Of a DNA stretch of 64,000 bases, positions 1-37,494 are shown piece by piece. The stretch's first letter is position 1. Each line of letters begins with the position of its first letter. The position numbers were made by a program, and so were the translations under genes. The stretch covers positions 51,794,758-51,858,757 of the forward strand of contig OX485805.1 of the NCBI GenBank assembly GCA_950295325.1, in the 5' to 3' direction. The notes under the pieces were generated by a model that saw only the letters and a list, made by a program, of their open reading frames with translations, had not been told where the DNA came from and did no database searches. The stretch is from Polytrichum commune (lineage: Eukaryota > Streptophyta > Polytrichopsida > Polytrichales > Polytrichaceae).

Positions 1-959
1 CATACCGCAAAGAGTTATTCAATTTGAAAGCAATGTTGTTGTGGACTATGACGGATTTTTAAGGTATGTTATTTGTTGATTTGTTTATCTTTGAGTATTT
101 CAACGACCATACAATAGGAATACGTTTGTTGATCTGTAAATCATCGAAGATGAAGATGGTGAATTGCAGGTTTACGTGTTGTGTTTGGTTTCGTTACTTG
201 GGGCAAAAACGCATGCAATGTGTGTGCAAACAATCTAATGTTTATAGTGGATTTGCACTTGAAAAAACAATTTATTCATCATTTAGACAATTCTTGTCAC
301 TTGCACACAAATCAAGGAAACAAATTTTAAGAGGAAGTGTGAAGGTCGTTTGAATAACAATCCAATCCATGTGAGACTCGATGGACGATATAGGATACAA
401 CGTTGAAAACATATTCGACAAACAAACATGCCAAAGGATAAAATAGGGATAAAACGATTGTCAACCTTGTTCATTCTACCTTATTGGAAGGTATTTACCC
501 AAACCATGCACTCAAAATCTATAGAATTTGCGTATAATAATGTATAAATTAATGATACATATTCCTAAAAAAATTACGATATTTTCAATATATGGAAACA
601 TAAGTTTGTGGGTGCATGTGCAAAAAAATTTCATACGTCACTTGCATGATTGTATGCACATAAAATAAAACGTTGTGGAAACAATGATGAAGATAATCTC
701 CAATGCAAAGGGGACAAAGGCTGATCGATTGGTGGTAAAAAAAAAATTACGATCTCAAAATAAATTAGTGGATTATCATCCTCGGGATGATGAATCATTC
801 CATAAAGCCTATTGGGTGTGGAGCTGTGAGGACATGAATTTCTTTTTCAAATGATTTAATTTGATTAAAACACCCACTCGTTTTGTATTAAATCTTATGA
901 ACTAACAGACTTCGGATTACAAGTTATGAGGCATAAAGTTTCACGACTATCATGTCCTC
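1..959. other. Left edge, no recognisable gene
   Basis: AT-rich sequence with no recognisable protein. It lies upstream of the CACTA remnant on the same strand. By family architecture it would be where the TNP2 transposase body sits, but I see no TNP2 motif, so it is too decayed or replaced. Confidence 0.4.
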
Positions 960-2190
960 CTATAATTCATTTTACATATCGCCATTTGGGGTATGTTGTC
1001 CAGGAAAATCAAAGAAGTTATTTATAGGCTTGCTAGGTTTTTAAGATAAATTTGTGGATAAACATACTTACCGAGGAGATTCCATTTTAGAAGGTAAAAA
1101 TTGCAGAGATTATGTGTTTGTTTGAGACATGTATCCCACCACATTTTTTTGATATTATGCCTCACTTATTGATATACCTTCCCAAAGAGGTGGAGTTGGT
1201 AGGTCTAGTGCACAACAAATGGTTGTATTTCTTTGAGATGTACATGAAAACTTTAAAATCAATGGTCCGTCAAAAACCTCATTCAAATGGTAGCATGAAG
1301 AAGGGATACTTGGCCCATTGTTTTACTTTGGAGAAATGCTCACGAGGTTGAATCCCACTGGAAGAAAAATTTGGATAGAAGACATGATGCCAAACCCAAA
1401 CAAAGTGATTTTGTCCAAAACACGCATGAAGAATAAGTTGGATTGCGACACTCACAAACATGTAAATAAACCATCATGACAACTTTGTTAATACAATTGT
1501 AAGTGATGTAGTTTATTATGATGTTATCATATGTCACGGCTTATGCAACTGTTAAAGAATCACAATGAAAGTTTCCATTATGATTATTTGATTTGGATAC
1601 ATTGTTGGTCTGTAGATTCATGAGTACCTTTTGTTCAATGAGTTGTACATGGGTGTATGAGAGATTAAATACCAAAAGGAGAGAGCAAGATGGGCAAAGG
1701 ATAAGGTGAAACCTTTGAAATCATTTTTGGAGTGGGTACAAAGACGAGTACTTTTGGGAATAGTTGGAAATGAACGGCCCTAGCCAAGACGCCTACTCCT
1801 ATAAATCTTGCATAATCAATGAATGACATTACATTATAGATCAGTAGATGAAAATACAACTGCTACAACAAATTGTATAGCAAGGAAAAGTGATTCCCGT
1901 AGCCAACGAGCTAAATTCTAGTATTATGGAGTTTTGAAATAGTAGTGGAGGTTCAATTGTCATCTCAACAGAAAGAGGTTTTGTTTATGGGAAAGTGGTA
2001 CAATACTATTGTTGGACCATATAACCGTGTTACCCAAGTACATGATGAGTGTGGGTTCATGAAAATCAAAACAACTTCAAATTTAGGTAATCGGGAGCTT
2101 TGGGTTAGCGTAGATACAATCACACAAGTGTTATAGCACCAGGATAGTGAGGACAAGGATTGGAGCTATGTTGTGGATGTGGAAGGATGA
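960..2190 (+). pseudogene. CACTA (En/Spm) transposon ORF remnant: DUF4218 and DUF4216 segments
   Basis: This is the 3' part of a TNP2-type CACTA transposon coding region. The first segment (about 1000-1355) reads like DUF4218: an R-K-I-K-E-V-I-Y-R-L lead-in near 1005, then CIPPHFFDIMPHLLIYLP from about 1130, then a V-H-N-K-W-L-Y-F-F-E stretch and a G-S-M-K-K-G-Y segment. The second (about 1900-2190) reads like DUF4216: VEVQLSSQQKEVLF, then GKWYNT, H-D-E-C-G-F, and after an in-frame TAG near 2134 the tail DKDWSYVVDVEG. Both domains normally follow the TNP2 transposase in autonomous CACTA elements, in this order and strand. Frame changes and stops at several points show it is dead. The assignment rests on recalled family motifs, not a search. 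Confidence 0.75.
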
Positions 2191-2985
2191 GGCTACATGG
2201 AGGCAACAACAAATTTTGGTTTGGTTTAAATGAGCCATTAGTGGAAAGCCAAATTAGGGAGTTGGCGGGAGTCTCTAAATGAATGGGAGAGAAGAAGATA
2301 TATGTCCATACTTTTGACTAAATGTAAACTAATTCATGCATAATGAGTGAAGTGTCACTACGGAATGGCAGGATTTAGTTCAATATGCATCTCTATAAGT
2401 TCTTATTTCCTTAAGACAAGAATGCCCTTGACTATGACAAGTATGTGATATTCAATATTCTTTTGCAATCTATCATCCTCACAAGAGTGAAGCAACATAT
2501 AATTTTCACTCATCCCTTTCTAGTAAGTATTGTTTCTTGTACTAATTGTTTGATGGGCTATTGGGTGATGTTCTCATTGATGAGCAATTTTTTTTTTAAA
2601 AAAATTTAGCTGATACCTAGTAATTAACATAAAACTTTTGTTTGTAAGGTCTTTGTAAAACGTGGTGCTACGGAGATCATTTAATTTCACTAATTACTGA
2701 ATTGTCAGCTTCATTGCGGATACACCTTGCTACACTTTCTAAATGAAGCACCTTTTCCCTCTCTAAATAAAGTTGCTCCCCACCTTATTGCTCCTTGCTC
2801 TCTAATATACCTGAGTAGTGAAAAGAAGGGAGGTAGGGTGGAAGATTAGGTTGGCCCTTCCGGAATTTGCTTTTCGTTTCCACTAGCAACAGTAAAGGCA
2901 TTGAGTGAACTACTTTTTGACTCCTCCTAAGACATTTTTGGAGTGACATTGCTAAGACATTGTTTGATACATTAAATCTTGAATA

Positions 2986-2996
2986 TTCTAGTAGTG
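2986..2996. repeat. Possible right terminus of the CACTA element
   Basis: TTCTAGTAGTG is the reverse complement of CACTACTAGAA, a common CACTA terminus in plants. It lies about 800 bp downstream of the DUF4216 segment on the correct side. The left terminus is outside the window, so the 3-bp TSD cannot be tested. Confidence 0.35.
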
Positions 2997-3635
2997 TTAT
3001 GTAATGTAACTCCAACATAAACCAACCTCTCTTATTTCACTGGAACATGGATACAGACTCAAAACCAAGACTATGTAAGTGAATGCAGACACCATAACTA
3101 TCACTTTTGGTTCCTTTCGCGCGGTCTATAGAGAACTCTAGCAATACTTGGAGGAAGCTATGTCTTCTACACAACTCTGAAAAGTACGGTCAAAAGACCA
3201 AACACTAAAGCATCACAAACTTCAAGAGGCCATAAAGACTGATAAAAATGTGGAAATTAAATCATAAAAAAATCAATTCATGTCACAATATTTACAGTAC
3301 TTGGTGTGTTATATTAAAATATTGTGAAGTAAATTGTTACATAAGATTTAGACGTACATTACATTATACACCACTTAGTAGGTGTAATAATAATCTATAC
3401 TGCATCAACACCCTTTCGAAGATTGTGATGATAGAGCACTGTAATTCTTCATCAAAAAACTGGAATAGCCACGGATCGATCTTATGAAGGCCAATGCATC
3501 TACATCATATAAGTTCATGCCTGCTCTTATTTAGTTGGAAAGAAAGTAGAATCAGACATCTCTTCATACAATCCCACCAGGTCCTGTTTTTTTTAAAGTC
3601 TACTGTTTCGACCTGTGTGTATATTTCCATGTAGT
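2997..3635. other. Non-coding stretch
   Basis: AT-rich sequence without recognisable coding motifs, tandem repeats or inverted repeats. Confidence 0.4.
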
Positions 3636-4022
3636 GCACATTGAGACTGTCCATAATGCGTAATTATTTTTTGAATTGAACATGTCTATGTATCATAATA
3701 CATCAATAATTTGAAAATAATGTGGGCTTTCTCTTGGACAGGGGGGTTCGTCCATAATCTGGTCTCCATCAGACCTTATTAGAATTTAGGTAATCTACAA
3801 ACATTTGAAGATAATCTAGATTATTTTGGCTTGTGAGCCCTAATCCTAACTCTCTTCCTGACTTCTCTCGGTGACTTCTCTCCTGCTTCTCTTTTGAAAC
3901 TCTTGAATCCAAATAATTTGAAATATAATCTAGGTTATATGTACGATCATGTGTACATAATCTATGCCTTTGTGATGTTTTTGGACAAGCCCTCTGTAAT
4001 TATTTGTTTGAGTTGCCACCCC
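3636..4022 (-). repeat. Dispersed repeat family G, copy 1
   Basis: Reverse-orientation copy of the repeat at 29542-29950. Shared landmarks include the terminal AGTTGCCACCCC (4011-4022), the GGACAGGGGGGTTCGTCC segment near 3740, and a TTGGCTTGTGAGCCCTAATC block near 3830. The inner motif AGGGGGNTCGTCC is itself repeated inverted near 3980, so the repeat contains an internal hairpin. Probably a non-autonomous DNA transposon. Confidence 0.6.
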
Positions 4023-4026
4023 GGGA

Positions 4027-4300
4027 CTCTTTGATGATGTTTGTTCTGTTTCTAAACCCTTCTCAATGTGATCTTCTCCATCTGAGAAATTATGGAGATG
4101 CTTTTACAGCTGACGTGCCTGAAAACTGTATTTGTTTTGCAATCTGCTCGAGTTTTACAAAAAGTGGCTTCCTCCAAGTGTTGCTGAAGTTCGAGGTTAG
4201 AACTTAGAGCAACCTTCATTTTGGTGTCTGAATTCAACATGTAGTTCTTGAAAAGCACGCTGATGAAGATTATTCTTGCTTTTGCTTATCTGTCTCCATG
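4027..4300 (+). repeat. Direct repeat of 5362-5570
   Basis: Shares ordered blocks with 5362-5570: a G-A-T-G-C-T-T-T-T-A-C-A-G-C-T start, CTTCCTCCAAGT, GCTGAAG, and GTTCTTGAAAAGCAC. The two copies lie about 1.3 kb apart in the same orientation, with a G-tract element and a family E copy between them. No credible protein. Confidence 0.5.
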
Positions 4301-4578
4301 TTCCAGTGCAGAAGGGATTTCTGTCAATAATGTGTAAATTTTCCTGCTTGTCGATTCCCTTGATAAGAGTAGGAACTTTCAGGTTGTCAAGGCATCAGTA
4401 AGTGTGTAAGATTTGTTTCTCTGGCAATCAATGTCACAGTAAACGCATTAAGTCTTGTTGAATTTCCCATCCTCAATACAACCCGCTTACATGACATGAA
4501 GAGATGTGTAATTGTACTTTGTTTCTAATTGAAGATGCGCAGACATAATGAACTTAGTATACGATCATGTGGTCATCC

Positions 4579-4917
4579 CTGGGGGGGGGCAGTGTGTTCA
4601 AAAGTTAAGGATATAGGTGCGAACAACCACTATTTTATAGGGGGGTATTACTTTTAATTCTCTTCTTTTTTTCACATGCTATCATTATGTAAATTTCTAC
4701 TTTGGGTTAATAGGAAAATGGCTTGCATTACTTATAATTCCAAATTACCTATTATTCCATACCCTATAGTACTTTAAAGATGTCTAGTGTCATTTTTGAT
4801 ACCCTATATTACTCTTAAGTCCATTTATAATTTTTTGCCCCCATGTTTTTAAAATACCCTATCATTTGTTCGCACGTATATTGCTACTCCAACCAATGAC
4901 TACCCCCCCCCCCCGAG
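4579..4917. mobile_element. Non-autonomous DNA element with G-tract ends and 8-bp TSD
   Basis: The element begins CTGGGGGGGGGC and ends with a C tract plus GAG. It is flanked on both sides by the perfect 8-bp direct repeat GGTCATCC (4571-4578 and 4918-4925). The ends are inverted repeats: after the G tract both contain ATATA-x-GTGCGAACAA. An 8-bp TSD fits hAT (or some Mutator-like) elements. No coding capacity is visible, and the interior is A+T-rich with several CCCTAT-type motifs. Confidence 0.75.
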
Positions 4918-7772: not shown

Positions 7773-8437
7773 CTATGTTCGGGGAAAACCGACGGCTAGT
7801 TCATTATCAACCGATGGATTTCGCCTCATGGCCGGTCCAAATTTCCAACCATCGGATGGCAATCCGACTGTAATTTCAATCCTCCGGCAATTAGCCGATG
7901 GACCAGAAAATGTCCCGGAAATGTAGCCGATTCTTCTTGTGAGTTATTGGATTTCAGCCGGAAGCATCCAAAGCGCTATTTGTTTGGGCCGGGGCATCTG
8001 ATGATGCACTTGAGGAAGTACCCTAAACCTTAAACTTTTTGAATTATGCAACCTTTCCATGACCAAATCCAATTGCTTCTATGAAGAATTGGGGGACCCT
8101 TGGCCTTCAAGCGGTGAAGGCATTGCTAGGTTCAATCCCTGCCAAGGATATTAAATCTTCAAATTTAAAGTTTTGAACATGCCTTTCTTTTCACTTATTC
8201 AAGATTTTATACTTAGAAATGATTTCTAATAACTTTTCATACATTTTTAAAACAATTAGTGCCGATATGAATTCCATTTAATCAGATATTGGCCAATGAA
8301 AATATGAAAATATAGGCAATTGGCCAATTGGTTTTACAAAAGACTGGCTCTTGCCGATGTAAATTGGAAAAAATCCGACCCTTCATAGCAACTACCGGCA
8401 ATTAGCCACTAAGGCTTCAAAAACTTCCCGAACTCTG
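7773..8437. mobile_element. Non-autonomous hAT element with 8-bp TSD
   Basis: A 665-bp element. The right end is CTTCCCGAACTCTG (hAT-like CAGAGTTCGGGAAG read inward) and the left end is the diverged CTATGTTCGGGGAA. It is flanked by the perfect 8-bp direct repeat CTTGAGTC (7765-7772 and 8438-8445). The interior is rich in CCGGC/GCCGA motifs such as GGCAATTAGCC. The ends match those of the gene-carrying hAT element at 17050-18737. No ORF. Confidence 0.85.
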
Positions 8438-8499: not shown

Positions 8500-8720
8500 C
8501 AGGGCTCGGGAAGAACTGGCGGTTAGTTACAGATGAATCAGTTGAGTTTGAGAAATAACCAGTTGAAGTTGGAGACTTCAGGAGAATTACCCATCATTTA
8601 AGAGGAATCTACAGAATGTACCTCAGATGAAGAAAGCAAAACCGGAAGATGTCAACATGTAACCGGCCGGATTTAGAATCACTAGGATCTTGACTATGCC
8701 CAAAAACTTCCTGGGCACTG
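8500..8720. mobile_element. hAT MITE with 8-bp TSD
   Basis: A 221-bp element with ends CAGGGCTCGGGAAG and CTTCCTGGGCACTG. It is flanked by the perfect 8-bp duplication ATCCAAAC (8492-8499, 8721-8728). It belongs to the same terminal-repeat family as 7773-8437 and 17050-18737. Its interior contains GTTGAGTTTGAGAAATAACC, the sequence multiplied in the unrelated-looking element at 12452-13360. Confidence 0.85.
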
Positions 8721-12451: not shown

Positions 12452-13360
12452 GAGCAAGCCTAGTCATTCCTGGATTTGCATCTGCATCCGAGAACAAAAG
12501 TGGCCTTCATCCAGGATACAAATCTAGGAAAAAGTGCTACTCATCCTGCATTGCAACCACATGATTGTGAATTTGAAAAATCACCAGTTGAGGTTCAGGG
12601 GTTCAGGAAAATTTCCCATCGCAGATGAACCGGTTGAGTTTGAGAAATAACCTGTTGAAGATGAAGACTCCAGGAAAATTTCCCATCATAGATAAATTGG
12701 TTGAGTTTGAAATATAACCGGTTGAAGATCAAGGCTTCGGGAAAATCACCCATCACAGATGAACCGGTTGAGTTTGAGAAATAATTGGTTGAAAGACTTC
12801 GGAAAAATTCATCAACCAGTTCATCTGTGATGCATAATTTTCCCAGTTATTTCTCAAACTCAACCGCTTCATCTGCAATGGGTAATTTTCTCTCAAGTCT
12901 CAAACCTCAATTGGTTATTTCTCAAACTCAACCGCTTCATCTGCAATGGGTAATTTTCTCTCAAGTCTCAAACCTCAACTGGTTATTTCTCAAACTCAAC
13001 CGCTTCATCTGCAATGGGTAACTTTCTCTCAAGTCTCAAACCTCAACTGGTTATTTCTCAAACTCAACCGCTTCATCTGCAATGGGTAATTTTCTCTCAA
13101 GTCTCAAACCTCAACTGGTTATTTCTCAAACTCAACTGCTTCATGTGTAACTATGTGGCTGGTAACTAGCCAAAAAAAGTGGGGAAGTGGTTAAAAAACA
13201 TCTTGTCTCATTATCCACAACCCTCCATGCATATCTGCAAATAAAAACATCCCGGATGACATTTACAGGCACGGTTAACCTCACTATCCCACATCTGCAT
13301 TTGCATTGCGGATGCAAAAATGCAATTGCAAACACAAACGCGGGATGAGTGGGCTTGCTC
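12452..13360. mobile_element. Non-autonomous element with GAGCAAGCC terminal repeats and an internal convergent tandem array
   Basis: Left end GAGCAAGCCTAGTCATTCC; right end read inward GAGCAAGCCCACTCATCCC. Both are followed by a region rich in TGCATCTGCATCCG-type motifs. GAG-type ends and fold-back structure suggest a Mutator-like element, but the 9-bp flanks (TCTACCTTA versus TCTCCTAAC) do not match cleanly. About 12570-12805 holds units reading GGTTGAGTTTGAGAAATAAC; 12843-13145 holds the same unit on the opposite strand, so the element can fold on itself. Confidence 0.6.
12843..13145 (+). repeat. 68-bp tandem repeat, about 4.5 copies
   Basis: The anchor GCTTCATCTGCAATGGG recurs at 12866, 12934, 13002, 13070 and (diverged) 13138, an exact 68-bp period. 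Units are nearly identical, so expansion was recent. More diverged inverse copies fill 12570-12805. Confidence 0.9.
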
Positions 13361-17041: not shown

Positions 17042-17570
17042 TTGTGGACCAGAGTCCGGGAAGTTTTGGGAGGCAACCGGTAGATTTCCTGCAAATTTTC
17101 ATTCATCCCGGTTTTTTTAAAATTTGCCCGGAAGTGGCAGTGAGGTGGTAAGAGTAGTCGGAAAATTTCCTAGAATTTCAATTTCTTCCGGTGGCATTGC
17201 CTCCATTGGCCAATTTCAATTGGCAAATTTCCTACACTTAGAAAATATAGCCGGTTTTTTTATTTTCATGTATTCTTTGATTTTTTTGTACTTCTAAAGT
17301 ATTGTTTTGTTCCATATCTCTGTCAGGATTTGAACCTGGCTTTGCCCCTACCAAATTAGGGCCAGAGATTCAGCCTCCCAAAAATGCACAAACCTAGAAT
17401 AAGATTCATGCATTTTTGGGAAGCTGGTTAGTACGACATGCCCACACATATGCAAAAATCAAAGCATGTGTTAAAAAACATAGAGGAAAGAACATACAAT
17501 CCACCACTAATAACAATCAAAACATGTGGGAAGAGAATGGAAAGCATAAGATGCAACCAAATGCAAGGTA

Positions 17571-17865
17571 TCAAGACAAATCATCATATACTAAAGTGGA
17601 AGTGCTAGCTGTAGGACCCGTGGCTGCACCAGACAGATAAGTAGTTGGGTTAGCATAAAGAAACTTGTATTTTGTTTCATTCTTCCACATGGGTATGGCA
17701 TCCATCAAAATAGCATCATACTCCTCTTCAGGCCCTTCTAAAGCAACTCTGAGTAAAGCTTCCAAGTTTTTGCTTCCCAATCTATTCCTTACCCGTGTTT
17801 TAATCAAATTTTGAATGCTAAAGGTCAAATTAGGGATTTCGTATAGAATTAGACCGGCTTGAAAA
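17571..17865 (-). pseudogene. hAT transposase C-terminal (dimerisation) fragment
   Basis: An open segment of about 95 codons with no start ATG. It reads LTFSIQNLIKTRVRNRLG, then LEALLRVALEGPEEEYDAIL, then IPMWKNETKYKF. The R-x-R-N-R-L-G, E-A-L-L-R and E-G-P blocks match the C-terminal dimerisation region of plant hAT transposases as I know them. It ends with a stop shortly after a Thr/Ser/Ala-rich tail. The zinc finger and RNase-H-like catalytic domains are absent. Its place inside a TSD-flanked hAT element supports the family call. Confidence 0.65.
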
Positions 17866-18063
17866 GATGAAGCAACATTTTGGGCTTACAAATAGACTAT
17901 AACAAGCTCAAAGATGAAGCATTCACAACATAATTCACAACCGAGGCAACATGGAGTCGTCACTTCTTCTTTTCAATTCTGTCATCTCAAAATTGCCAGT
18001 GCCACAAATTTCCCTGTTGCACACAATGCAGTCACTTGAATGCACACAAGAATTCGCACACAT

Positions 18064-18525
18064 TCAAACACAGAAGCAATCCAGGAGAGAATCGTCCAGA
18101 ATGACATACGGGCAGTAAGATTTGGACCACACAACCATAGGCTCCGACGAATTGGTCTTCTTGATCTGAGTGAGTTGCGGGCACCAGCCAAGCCCAGTAG
18201 GGATAGCGCCGGTGAAGTCGTTGAAAGAGAGGCTCAGCACCTGCAAGCTGCTGCAATTGATCTCAGTTGGGAGGGTCCCAGTGAGAGAATTGTGAGAAAG
18301 GTCGATCACTTTGATGGACGGCATTTGTGTGTACATCCCCGCAGGTATGCTACGGTTGCTACCCACAAGCTCATTGCTTGTTAGGTTTAGGGTTTGCAGC
18401 CCCTTGCAGACACCGAACCCATTTTCTGTGAAATTCCCTTGGAGGATATTGTAGGAGAGATCCAGTTTGCTGGTTTGAGATCCAGTATGAAAATTAATTC
18501 CTATAAAGTATGAGATTGGCCGGCT
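18064..18525 (-). pseudogene. LRR receptor-like kinase fragment (ectodomain only)
   Basis: A minus-strand open segment reads as four consecutive plant-type leucine-rich repeats: KLDLSYNILQGNF, LNLTSNELVGSN with SIPAGMY, VIDLSHNSLTGTLPTEI, and LSLSFNDFTGAIPTGLG. These fit LxxLxLxxNxLxGxIPxxL of receptor-like kinases and proteins. There is no signal peptide, membrane segment or kinase domain, and no convincing start codon; the frame runs on about 34 codons past the last repeat and stops. It lies wholly within the hAT element and on the same strand as the transposase tail, so it looks like transposon cargo. The source subfamily cannot be determined. Confidence 0.85.
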
Positions 18526-18745
18526 ACTAGCCTACAAAAATTATTTACAGTAGGTAAATTTCCCCCTTACACTAAAGGTAAAAGGCAAAATTCCTACACA
18601 TAATTTTCTAGACCGGTCCATTTCCTACAAAAAAAAAATTCATCCGGAAGCTCATCCTACACTTTGCTATTTCATTCGGAAATTCTCAATTTCAACCGGC
18701 TAGGTCGTAACTAAATGCCGGTACTCCCCGTTCATAGTTGTGGAC

Positions 18746-27060: not shown

Positions 27061-28440
27061 CATCTCAAGTATCCCAACGTGCTATGCTAAATGCCATAAT
27101 GCAAACGAATTATGACATTGAAAATGTTACTTATGTTGATGAATAACACCAAATCCGCAATTAGCAAATATGACACTTTGAAACCTCTGGGGATCTAGCT
27201 TCACAAGTAGTGTACATGACACCTGAAACACCCATAAATGGCGGAATCATGTGTTTCTTCACATCCTAGGAGAAGAAGCGGGGTAGTTGGAGAAAGTAAC
27301 CAATTAAAGACTCATCTAACCTTATGCAACAATTCCCCCCCCCCCCCACCCCACCCCCTTGCCCCAACCATAATGCACATGAATTACGACATTGAAAATG
27401 TCACTTACGTGGATGAATCGTATCAAATCTGCAACTAGCGAATATGACACTTTGAAAACCACTAGGGATCTAGCTTCACAAGTAGTGTACATGAAACCAT
27501 CAACACCCATAAACGGCGTTAATCGTGTGTTTCTTCACATCCTAGGAGAAGAAGTGGGGTAGTTGGAGAAAGTAACCACTTAAAGATCCATCTAACCTTA
27601 TGCAACAATCCCCCCCCCCCTCCCCTTCCCCTCGTGCCCCGACCATAATGCAAACGAATTACGACATTGCAAATGTCACTTATGTCGATGAATCATGTCA
27701 AATCCGCAACTAGTGAACATGACACTTTGAAAACCTCTAGGGATCTAGCTTCACAAGTAGTGTACATGACACTAGAAACACCCATAAACAACGTGAATCG
27801 TGTGTTTCTTCACATCGCATCCTAGGAGAAGAAGTGGGGTAGTTGGAGAAAGTAACCATTTAAAACCCATCTAACCTTACACAATAATTTCCCCCCTCTC
27901 CCCAACCATAACGCAAACGAATTACGACATTGAGAATGTTACTTATGTTGATGACTAGCATCAAAAGTGCAATTAGTTAGCGTGACACTTTGAAAACCTC
28001 TAGGGATCTAGCTTCACAAGTAGTGTACGTGACACTAGAAACACCCATAAACGGCGTGAATCGCGTGTTTCTTCACATCCTAGGAGAAGAAGTGGTGTAG
28101 TTGGAAAAAGTAACCATTTAAAACCCATCTAACCTTACGCAATAATTTCCCCCCTCGCCCCAACCATGACGCAAACGAATTACGACATTGAAAATGTTAC
28201 TTATGTTGATGACTAGCATCAAAAGTGCAATTAGTTAGCGTGACACTTTGAAACCTCTAGGGATCTAGCTTCACAAGTAGTGTACGTGACACTAGAAACA
28301 CCCATAAACCATAAACGGCGTGAATCGTGTGTTTCTTCGCATCACATCCTAGGAGAAAAAGTGGGGTAGTTGGAGAAAGTAACCATTTAAGGACCCATGT
28401 AACGTCATCATGCAATAATAATAATTTCCCCCTCTTGCCC
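27060..28440 (+). repeat. Tandem array of five units of about 270 bp with poly-C junctions
   Basis: The anchor (t/c)ACGACATTG recurs at 27112, 27386, 27661, 27924 and 28182, giving periods of 274, 275, 263 and 258 bp. Each unit carries GGATCTAGCTTCACAAGTAG, CATCCTAGGAGAAGAAG, GGGGTAGTTGGAGAAAGTAA and ends in CCATCTAACCTTA, then a variable C tract (up to about 16) before the next unit. The last unit is truncated near 28440. Frames across it are disrupted, so it is not a protein repeat. Confidence 0.9.
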
Positions 28441-28641
28441 AAGTTGTGTGCCAGCTGGGGGGGAAATGCGTGGTGTTGTGTTTTGTTGACTTGGCTCATG
28501 AAGAGGCCAGGCTGGGCTGCCCACATTGCAAGTTGACCGACCAAAAGAGTTGAGGGGGGCAGCAGCAGTAGCTAGTCGGGCCTTTGGCTTCCCTCCAGAC
28601 TGGCCATAAGTCCACTTGTGTTGTACAGGAACTCATTTTGT

Positions 28642-35295: not shown

Positions 35296-35781
35296 ACTAT
35301 ATTCGTTAATTTGGGATTTTTTCGGCATTTTGAGATAGTTACAAATATAAGAACATGGATAAAATCACACAGATATTGGAGAATGTTGTAAGATGCAAAT
35401 ATTTTGAAGCGGGTGTTTATATCAAGAACCCAATTAAGAACTCATATCAAGATGGTTTAGGTAGGACGACACAAACATTAGACCATGTTGTTGTGGTCCA
35501 TATATTAATATGAGACAAGAGAAAGTCACAACTATATTCGTTAATTTGAGACTTTCTCTTGTCTCAAATTAATATATGGACCACAACAACATGGTCTAAT
35601 GTTTGGGTCGTCCTACCTAAACCATCTTGATATGAGTTCTTAATTGGGTTCTTGATATGAACACCCGCTTCAAAGTATTTGCATCTTACAACATTCTCCA
35701 ATGTTTGTGTGATTTTATCCATGTTCTTATATTTGTAACTGTCTCAAAATGCCGAAAAAGTCCTAAATTAACGAATATAGT
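35296..35781. mobile_element. Near-perfect hairpin, 231-bp arms with a 24-bp spacer
   Basis: The arms 35296-35526 and 35551-35781 are inverted copies differing at only about nine positions (roughly 96% identity). Ends are ACTATATTCG ... CGAATATAGT. Flanks show GGTT on both sides, a possible 4-bp TSD. The spacer (35527-35550) repeats the terminal sequence ACTATATTCGTTAATTTGAG. There is no ORF. Probably a fold-back MITE; a transcript would form a long double-stranded RNA. Confidence 0.8.
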
Positions 35782-36237: not shown

Positions 36238-37494
36238 GGGGGACGTTAAGTACCCCCCCACGAACTAATAGGGATTCCATATTCGGGCGGGGGCAGCCCT
36301 CCCACGAAATTTCTGGCCCCGCCCGGATTTTTTCCAAACCCGCCCGAAAATAGCTGCCCGCCCCGCCCGAAAACGAAAAAAACATTGCTCTTCCATTCTT
36401 GAAGGCCGCTTGACTACAAATCCCATATTGAGTGCACTTCACCTTCAAGGTCTCAAATCCAATATATATGTGCACTTCCACCTAGTAAATAAGGCATTAA
36501 ATGGGATTACATTCCGGAAGTGAAACCATCAACCAAGAATGTAATTAACTTGGAAGTCAAAAAATTAGAAAATCCTCATCAACATTGAGGTTATAATTTT
36601 TATGACTTACCATTTGAAATTGTCTTCGTCATTCTTAAATGACACTTAAATTTAGTGCGCTGATGTGGTATGTATATTTTATAATATTTTAGATAATTCT
36701 GGCTACTTTCAAGAATATTCATACGCACTTATTTATAAAATATACTTAATGGAACTAATTAATCAATTATTTTAATTACCGGATTTAATTGGAGTTAATT
36801 CCATTAATTAAATTTTAGGGTTAATTAGGCTTACTGGATATAAAAATTGAGTATTGTAATTACTGAAATTGATTGGACTTAATTGGAGTTAATTCCAGTA
36901 ATTAAATTTTAGGATTAATTAGTCTTACTTAATTTGGAAATAATACTTTCTGATTTATTTGGGATTAATTAGGATTAATCAGAATTAATTAGACATAATT
37001 ACATTAAATCACACTTAATTAGAATAAGTGCGTATGATTATTCTTGAAAGTAGCCAGAATTATCTAAAATATTATAAAATATACATACCACATCAGCGCA
37101 CTAAATTTAAGTGTCATTTTAGAATGACGAAGACAATTTCAAATGGTATGTCATAAAAATTATAACCTCAATGTTGATGAGGATTTTCTAATTTTTTGAC
37201 TTCCAAGTTAATAACATTCTTGGTTGATGGTTTCACTTCCGGAATGTAATCCCATTTAATGCCTTATTTACTAGGTGGAAGTGCACATATATATTGGATT
37301 TGAGACCTTGAAGGTGAAGTGCACTCAATATGGGATTTGTAGTCAAGCGGCCTTCAAGAATGGAAGAGCAATGTTTTTTTCGTTTTCGGGCGGGTTTGGA
37401 AAAAATCCGGGCGGGGCCAGAAATTTCGTGGGAGGGCTGCTCCGCCCGAATATGGAATCCCTATTAGTTCGTGGGGGGGTACTTAACATCCCCC
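36238..37494. mobile_element. Fold-back Mutator-like element with 9-bp TSD
   Basis: The 1257-bp element has terminal inverted repeats at 36238-36733 (496 bp) and 37023-37494 (472 bp), about 98% identical apart from one 24-bp indel near 36350. Ends are GGGGGACGTTAAGTACC and (inward) GGGGGATGTTAAGTACC. A perfect 9-bp TSD, ATGAATGAA, flanks it (36229-36237, 37495-37503). The arms begin with a GC-rich block of GCCCG repeats. The 290-bp AT-rich centre holds two about 93-bp direct repeats (GGAGTTAATTCCA at 36791 and 36884). Long terminal repeats plus a 9-bp TSD are typical of Mutator-like elements. The frames readable in both arms are the same sequence mirrored, not genes. Confidence 0.9.

Follow-up and report, generated by a model that had tools for sequence, protein, structure and literature searches.

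Gene capture by hAT elements is already known from other plants, animals and fungi. In the animal survey of PMC8277862, 208 of 370 Pack-TIR elements are hAT, and such capture is thus less rare than the earlier note on this DNA had held when it called hAT examples fewer. The Pack-hAT elements of maize and rice, as described in PMC8903248, are like the element studied here in being non-autonomous hAT elements with gene pieces and an 8-bp duplication. In the grapevine family Hatvine-6, as presented in PMC2528002, the transposase and the ends are constant and the remainder is variable, as was found here; the variable part is reported there often to match host introns, exons and non-genic sequence. 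A complete hAT that amplifies host gene sequence, again as in the present case, is the histone H3 hAT reported for Pseudocercospora fijiensis and relatives (PMC6710886).

The window analysed is a stretch of 64,000 nucleotides from Polytrichum commune (C3:51794758-51858757 of genome G000, 407.8 Mb in 64 contigs). It contains a 1688-bp element that is very probably a non-autonomous Pack-hAT, trimmed from a parent with a cargo from six loci that was probably acquired by template switching, and then presumably mobilised by the transposase of relatives. Contig C8 of the genome yielded an rbcL of land-plant type and an accD of 315 aa, a short length that hints at a non-seed plant. None of the titles and abstract openings listed in a literature search limited to open-licence texts described this element.

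The element at 17050-18737 and its copies

The element and its parts are listed below (related elements carry E numbers, loci L numbers).

17042..17049, no strand: left copy of the 8-bp target-site duplication TTGTGGAC, directly adjoining the unit
17050..18737, minus strand (transposase sense): non-autonomous hAT element with captured gene pieces, 1688 bp
17050..17824, minus strand: left hAT end, made up of the terminus CAGAGTCCGGGAAG, a noncoding region and the 3' part of the transposase gene; 98.97% identity to E010 1-775 and 96.0% to the cargo-free E015
17571..17824, minus strand: C-terminal transposase tail, which takes in the final portion of the hAT dimerisation domain and corresponds to residues 399 onward of the L010 ORF
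17821..17824, no strand: internal-deletion joint, AAGG microhomology at element 772-775; the parent has about 3.9 kb more at this point
17826..18166, minus strand: glutaredoxin gene piece captured in sense orientation; the final 57 bp of exon 1 lie at 18110-18166, followed by a portion of intron 1
18104..18109, minus strand: GTATGT, putative native splice donor of glutaredoxin intron 1
18163..18464, minus strand: captured exon piece of an LRR receptor kinase in sense, 302 bp, about four repeats by eye
18064..18531, minus strand: 155-aa open frame running through hAT end, filler and the LRR and glutaredoxin pieces, each of which is read in its native frame
18465..18485, no strand: filler of 21 bp that separates the LRR piece from the right end, straddled by a 13-bp direct repeat
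18486..18737, minus strand: right hAT end (5' end in transposase sense) with terminus ...CCCCGTTCATAG; 98.8% identity to the cargo-free E015 and 99.2% to L016
18738..18745, no strand: right copy of the target-site duplication TTGTGGAC, directly adjoining the unit

In the transposase sense, the order is right end, filler, LRR piece, glutaredoxin piece (341 bp), transposase tail and left end. The direct repeat around the filler lies at 18457-18469 and 18477-18489 (repeat family D6).

The 1688-bp unit between perfect 8-bp repeats TTGTGGAC, to which the earlier note had drawn attention, was borne out. The octamer is not rare (5 matches in the window versus a mean of 2.87 in shuffles) and would alone be insufficient; mobility is concluded from the perfect and mutually different 8-bp duplications of the genome copies. 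Among the best 40 of 388 candidates, at least six full-length copies of the 1688-bp form (98.99-100% identity, window copy included) were found genome-wide, each with its own, different, perfect 8-bp duplication. All 13 related elements in which both ends could be located have the duplication length of hAT elements, each duplication being perfect (8/8) and different from the others; in a fourteenth relative, L016, the left end was looked for and not found. Copy counts are lower bounds, with only the best-ranking candidates scored.

Terminal inverted repeats of hAT elements are short and often start with CA(G). Those of the window element (left terminus CAGAGTCCGGGAAG on the 17050 side, right terminus ...CCCCGTTCATAG on the 18737 side) are weak, with 9 of the first 15 positions agreeing by hand count between left CAGAGTCCGGGAAGT and reversed right CTATGAACGGGGAGT. 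The element ends are nearly invariant across 13 elements, and the genome search that the earlier note had proposed found the termini to be common to the genome-wide copies. For the right end (18486-18737), the best 40 of 263 candidates included at least 14 close genome copies at 99-100%, 12 of which carry the LRR piece. A further 26 of these 40 scored matches are related hAT ends at 79-86%, which suggests that the genome harbours additional hAT subfamilies.

The ends had also been said to match two other hAT elements in the window. This holds at both ends for 7773-8437, a hAT-like element of 665 bp that is flanked by the perfect 8-bp duplication CTTGAGTC and whose ends, CAGAGTTCGGGAAG.../...CCCCGAACATAG, are like those of the main element; no internal similarity between the two was found beyond the 18-bp end match. 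The second, a 221-bp miniature hAT-like element at 8500-8720 (duplication ATCCAAAC, inverted ends CAGGGCTCGGGAAG / CAGTGCCCAGGAAG), shares only a left-type end. Other repeats in the window comprise five tandem copies of a unit of approximately 258-280 bp (27094-28447), tandem repeats of 67-68 bp (12555-13185, plus one copy at 8530), and two large inverted repeats at 36362-37394 and 35296-35781, their arms measuring 372 bp (99%) and 236 bp (96%).

Captured pieces, donors and parental forms

Pfam confirms the leucine-rich repeats on the minus strand (LRR_1, E=1.1e-11; LRR_8, E=6.7e-11), and their number of four is a count by eye. PDB matches of the piece were GSO1, FLS2 and BRI1-like 2. With all 13 candidates scored, a single match outside the elements was obtained at 93% (L017, C1:70.077 Mb); this 8-kb donor locus has an LRRNT_2 N-terminal domain, many LRRs and a kinase domain. 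The presence of the LRR piece in 12 copies reveals that the cargo was amplified to several loci, as in Pack-TYPE elements.

The cargo described as an LRR fragment in the earlier note was indeed captured, but a second captured piece at 17826-18166 had been overlooked. Its sole further match over the full length among the best 40 of 45 candidates is L018 (C1:9.130 Mb), at 87% identity. Exon 1 of L018 ends in ...VVVWSKSYCP and exon 2, after CTTTGCAG, is YCMRVKKLLGSLGADVKVIELDESG; the joint restores the CPYC motif. Exons 2 and 3 match consecutive stretches of the Glutaredoxin profile (8-34 and 32-56; E=0.0033 and 0.031) without reaching the curated cut-off, and the glutaredoxin identity is assigned from the exon joint together with these two consecutive weak matches. 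The element appears to have kept the native splice donor of intron 1. The part of the intron at 17876-17981 has at least 29 short genome matches at 74-85%, indicating that the donor intron holds a repeat. The cargo is thus gene-derived DNA in the Pack-TYPE sense, the LRR and glutaredoxin pieces each having one full-length match outside the elements (for glutaredoxin, among the best 40 of 45).

The tail next to the cargo had been assigned to the hAT dimerisation domain, which is correct in identity but partial in extent. In the 481-aa ORF of the long relative L010, Pfam places Dimer_Tnp_hAT at residues 362-422 (E=3.2e-7); the window retains this protein from residue 399 on and hence 24 of the 61 matched residues, and Pfam did not find the dimerisation domain in the window's 104-aa ORF. 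The dimerisation region of hAT elements is therefore present in L010 and the window holds its tail alone, so that the element, with no more than a transposase-frame tail, is non-autonomous as Pack-TYPE elements are. The transcript envisaged in the earlier note, reading LRR and then transposase tail, is consistent with their common strand, but the LRR-glutaredoxin frame (18064-18531) and the tail frame (17571-17885) are separate. A continuous frame from one into the other is absent, and a single protein of this kind would need splicing.

Two cargo-bearing parents, E010 (5614 bp) and E009 (7230 bp), have the window element's ends, the LRR and glutaredoxin pieces and a long transposase frame. In E010 this frame contains a zf-C17orf113 zinc finger and Dimer_Tnp_hAT (Pfam). 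At L009, a nested 1606-bp element with ends CACGGGGGGG... and the 8-bp duplication AGTATTGT occupies element positions ~259-1864. The cargo-free form is known from two relatives, E015 (3813 bp, transposase gene with a frameshifted stretch) and L016 (incomplete in the data). The transposase frames of E009 and E010 (loci L009 and L010) have one stop each, in different places; with these stops and the frameshift of E015, no working transposase helper was identified among the three frames.

The parent also extended the source of the cargo beyond the LRR locus proposed earlier, since it holds pieces of five further loci. In E010, an array of 2.57 kb from six loci on five chromosomes takes the place of 772 bp (S, position in transposase sense).

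S1-252: right end, as in E015
S274-575: LRR receptor exon, donor C1:70.08 Mb
S572-913: glutaredoxin exon and intron, donor C1:9.13 Mb
S931-1135: 3' side of a galactosyltransferase gene, donor C2:38.30 Mb, starting ~330 bp past the stop of the frame
S1139-1904: intron of an LSM14/FDF-domain gene, donor C4:25.35 Mb
S1900-2714: C5 stretch, donor C5:27.74 Mb
S2719-2809: C7 stretch in two bits with 477 bp skipped, donor C7:39.185 Mb
S2826-5614: transposase and left end, as in E015

Homology to E015 resumes 12 bp before the transposase start codon (ATG at S2838). No annotation was found for the C5 and C7 pieces themselves; the nearest recognised domain at the C5 donor is GH17, on the other strand and ~1.6 kb away, and the C7 donor has a weak plastocyanin-like match, below cut-off, ~1.4 kb away. 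A genome search with the array gave ten matches: the two parents, three main donors and five weaker ones, two of which are the C7 bits of the sixth donor. The remaining weaker matches were not counted as donors (part of the C4 piece, 71% at C6:42.318 Mb; parts of the C2 piece, 68% at C2:38.322 Mb and 78% at C4:18.622 Mb).

The 772-bp segment between right end and transposase start in E015 and L016 matched, at the sensitivity of the genome search, only these two loci (L015 and L016; 2 of 2 candidates) and is accordingly absent from the 12 cargo-bearing copies. The ancestral segment was thus lost at the capture site, as in gap filling. Since E015 and L016 hold it where the array sits in E010, capture replaced the 5' region of the element and did not add to it. 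The capture claimed in the earlier note is real, but it happened in a transposase-bearing parent and not in the short element.

The window form equals E010 without positions 776-4700 (or 772-4696, AAGG being shared), and is a deletion derivative, with this 4-bp microhomology, of the transposase-bearing parents. A second deletion form of ~1.9 kb, E010 without 1100-4812, is present in four copies (E011-E014) with the LRR piece; its joint has no clear microhomology, and one copy is enlarged to 2.9 kb by an insertion. At L014, element-oriented positions 972-1991 are a CACTA-like 1020-bp insertion with CACTACAAGAAA ends and the 3-bp duplication AGA. Both trimmed forms have perfect 8-bp duplications throughout.

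Mode, time and place of capture

The exact overlaps at the joints are GATC (4 bp, LRR/glutaredoxin), GAACC (5 bp, C7 skip) and AAGG (4 bp, window deletion). The C4/C5 joint has an imperfect 5-bp overlap, and the other array joints have fillers of 3-21 bp. After the glutaredoxin piece, S913-934 matches the LRR donor at 18 of 22 positions from the exact contiguous base, 3919; no other position on either strand of the 8-kb donor locus scores as high, the next best having 16. Judged from this resumption, either the glutaredoxin piece entered an already captured LRR piece, or synthesis would have left the LRR template and returned to it.

Capture by gap repair with template switching, followed by mobilisation in trans, is the likely course: the overlaps and fillers at the joints, the lost original segment and the resumption of LRR copying at the base where it had stopped suggest template switching. 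A double-strand break or an aborted excision inside a hAT may have started the process, and repair synthesis would then have switched between unrelated templates with loss of the original 5' segment. Two internal deletions gave rise to the 1688-bp and ~1.9-kb forms, and the trimmed copies presumably moved with transposase from relatives.

The 12 cargo copies differ from the per-column majority by 0.13-0.65% in the left end, 0-0.95% in the cargo and 0-1.19% in the right end. In noncoding sequence, the cargo-bearing E010 differs from the cargo-free E015 at 25 of 772 positions (3.2%); in the ancestral segment, E015 and L016 differ at 20 of 772. Between the five non-LRR pieces and their donors, 153 of 2122 positions differ (7.2%), significantly more than the 25/772 between elements (Fisher p=4.9e-5); these pieces are mostly noncoding or without an assigned gene, with 57 bp of exon in the glutaredoxin piece. 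Transversions (73/2122 in non-LRR cargo versus 8/772 for E010/E015, p=2.9e-4) and gap events (36/2122 versus 3/772, p=0.0054) gave the same direction. The LRR exon alone was without excess (10/293, p=0.85), as was C7a (2/38, p=0.36), and C5 was marginal (43/805, p=0.047, uncorrected). A quick tree of 13 elements with 18 informative sites was too weak for use.

The divergence of cargo from donors (7.2%) exceeds that between E010 and E015 (3.2%) and contradicts a simple capture after the two forms had parted. Capture seems either to predate the split of the element forms, with later exchange, or to have used donors of a diverged lineage. In the latter case, the array would have been built in a related lineage, out of genes native to it, and both forms of the subfamily would then have entered by introgression or horizontal transfer. 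This course, which differs from the preferred one only in the place of capture, is rather unlikely. It would explain why the non-LRR pieces are each 5.3-9.0% from their only good genomic donors (C7 bits, 5.3 and 11.9%), without significant heterogeneity among pieces (chi-square 8.2, 4 d.f., p=0.085), when the elements are 3.2% apart. It also agrees with the isolation of the transposase, which has three long matches at 97-100% and next long ones at ≤69% among the best 40 of 129 candidates, an isolation that is no proof of foreign origin. However, an older capture with exchange between cargo-bearing and cargo-free elements fits the same numbers, and the LRR piece alone has no excess. If transfer did occur, captured DNA in a hAT would act as a 'passport' naming the source of horizontal or introgressive transfer.

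A host function of the LRR-glutaredoxin frame or its small RNA, as a chimeric exon or in silencing of the donor LRR receptor kinase, is improbable and has no support. The two pieces are fused in sense and in their native frames with the native splice donor, and transcription from the 5' end of the hAT may include the frame as a fused exon. Of the 12 copies, 9 keep this frame open and three do not (a frameshift in E003, a single stop in E005, two in E009), but with pairwise differences between copies of only 0.3-1.2% open frames carry little meaning. The copies are separated by 19 distinct codon changes, of which 8 are silent, 8 replace the amino acid and 3 create stops (expected without selection, 26%, 71% and 3%, respectively). 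These revealed no selection on the protein; they are too few for proof, and the stops are above expectation.

Insertion of reverse-transcribed transcripts into the element is very improbable. Of the six donor pieces, four could be oriented and all four are in sense, which is not a significant bias (p=0.0625, one-sided). The glutaredoxin piece spans exon 1 into intron 1, the LSM14-gene piece sits between the two halves of the LSM14 domain and so lies in an intron, and the 477-bp C7 skip is bounded by repeated GAACC and not by GT...AG. Capture via spliced RNA is disfavoured by this intron content, the template being DNA or unspliced RNA.

The reading of the LRR stretch as what is left of a local host gene, an objection the earlier note had itself raised, with the 8-bp repeat as a chance occurrence, for which the five matches of the octamer in the window could be cited, has virtually no probability, at least five further full-length copies with the same ends and different 8-bp duplications lying elsewhere and the sole non-element match, the donor locus, being on another chromosome.

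Comparison with described hAT captures

Particular to the present case are six donors in one element, a replaced 5' region, a resumed template and a preserved series of forms. One genome keeps all stages, namely the cargo-free form, the cargo-bearing form with transposase and two trimmed forms, and the order of capture, trimming and spread can therefore be read base by base. The series suggests a hAT whose 5' part was rewritten by template switching, and the unequal divergence of cargo and element offers a testable lead on the place and time of capture.

Compared with Hatvine-6 as given in PMC2528002, the donors, the replaced segment, the order of pieces and two deletion forms are resolved here. 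Pack-TYPE elements are defined as non-autonomous in PMC8903248, whereas transposase-bearing parents with the same cargo exist here; the same account favours acquisition by mobilisation of neighbouring insertions, and the joints described above suggest template switching. The histone H3 hAT, as reported in PMC6710886, differs in being fungal, in amplifying one gene in hundreds of copies and in its inactivation by RIP. Animal Pack-TIRs as treated in PMC8277862, such as a three-copy Pack-hAT of the western clawed frog, have hAT ends and distinct duplications as found here, and short microhomologies comparable to the overlaps at some of the present joints. They are mostly single-copy, with breakpoints a median of 4.6% of element length apart; in contrast, the array in Polytrichum commune combines six donors and replaces the entire 5' region.
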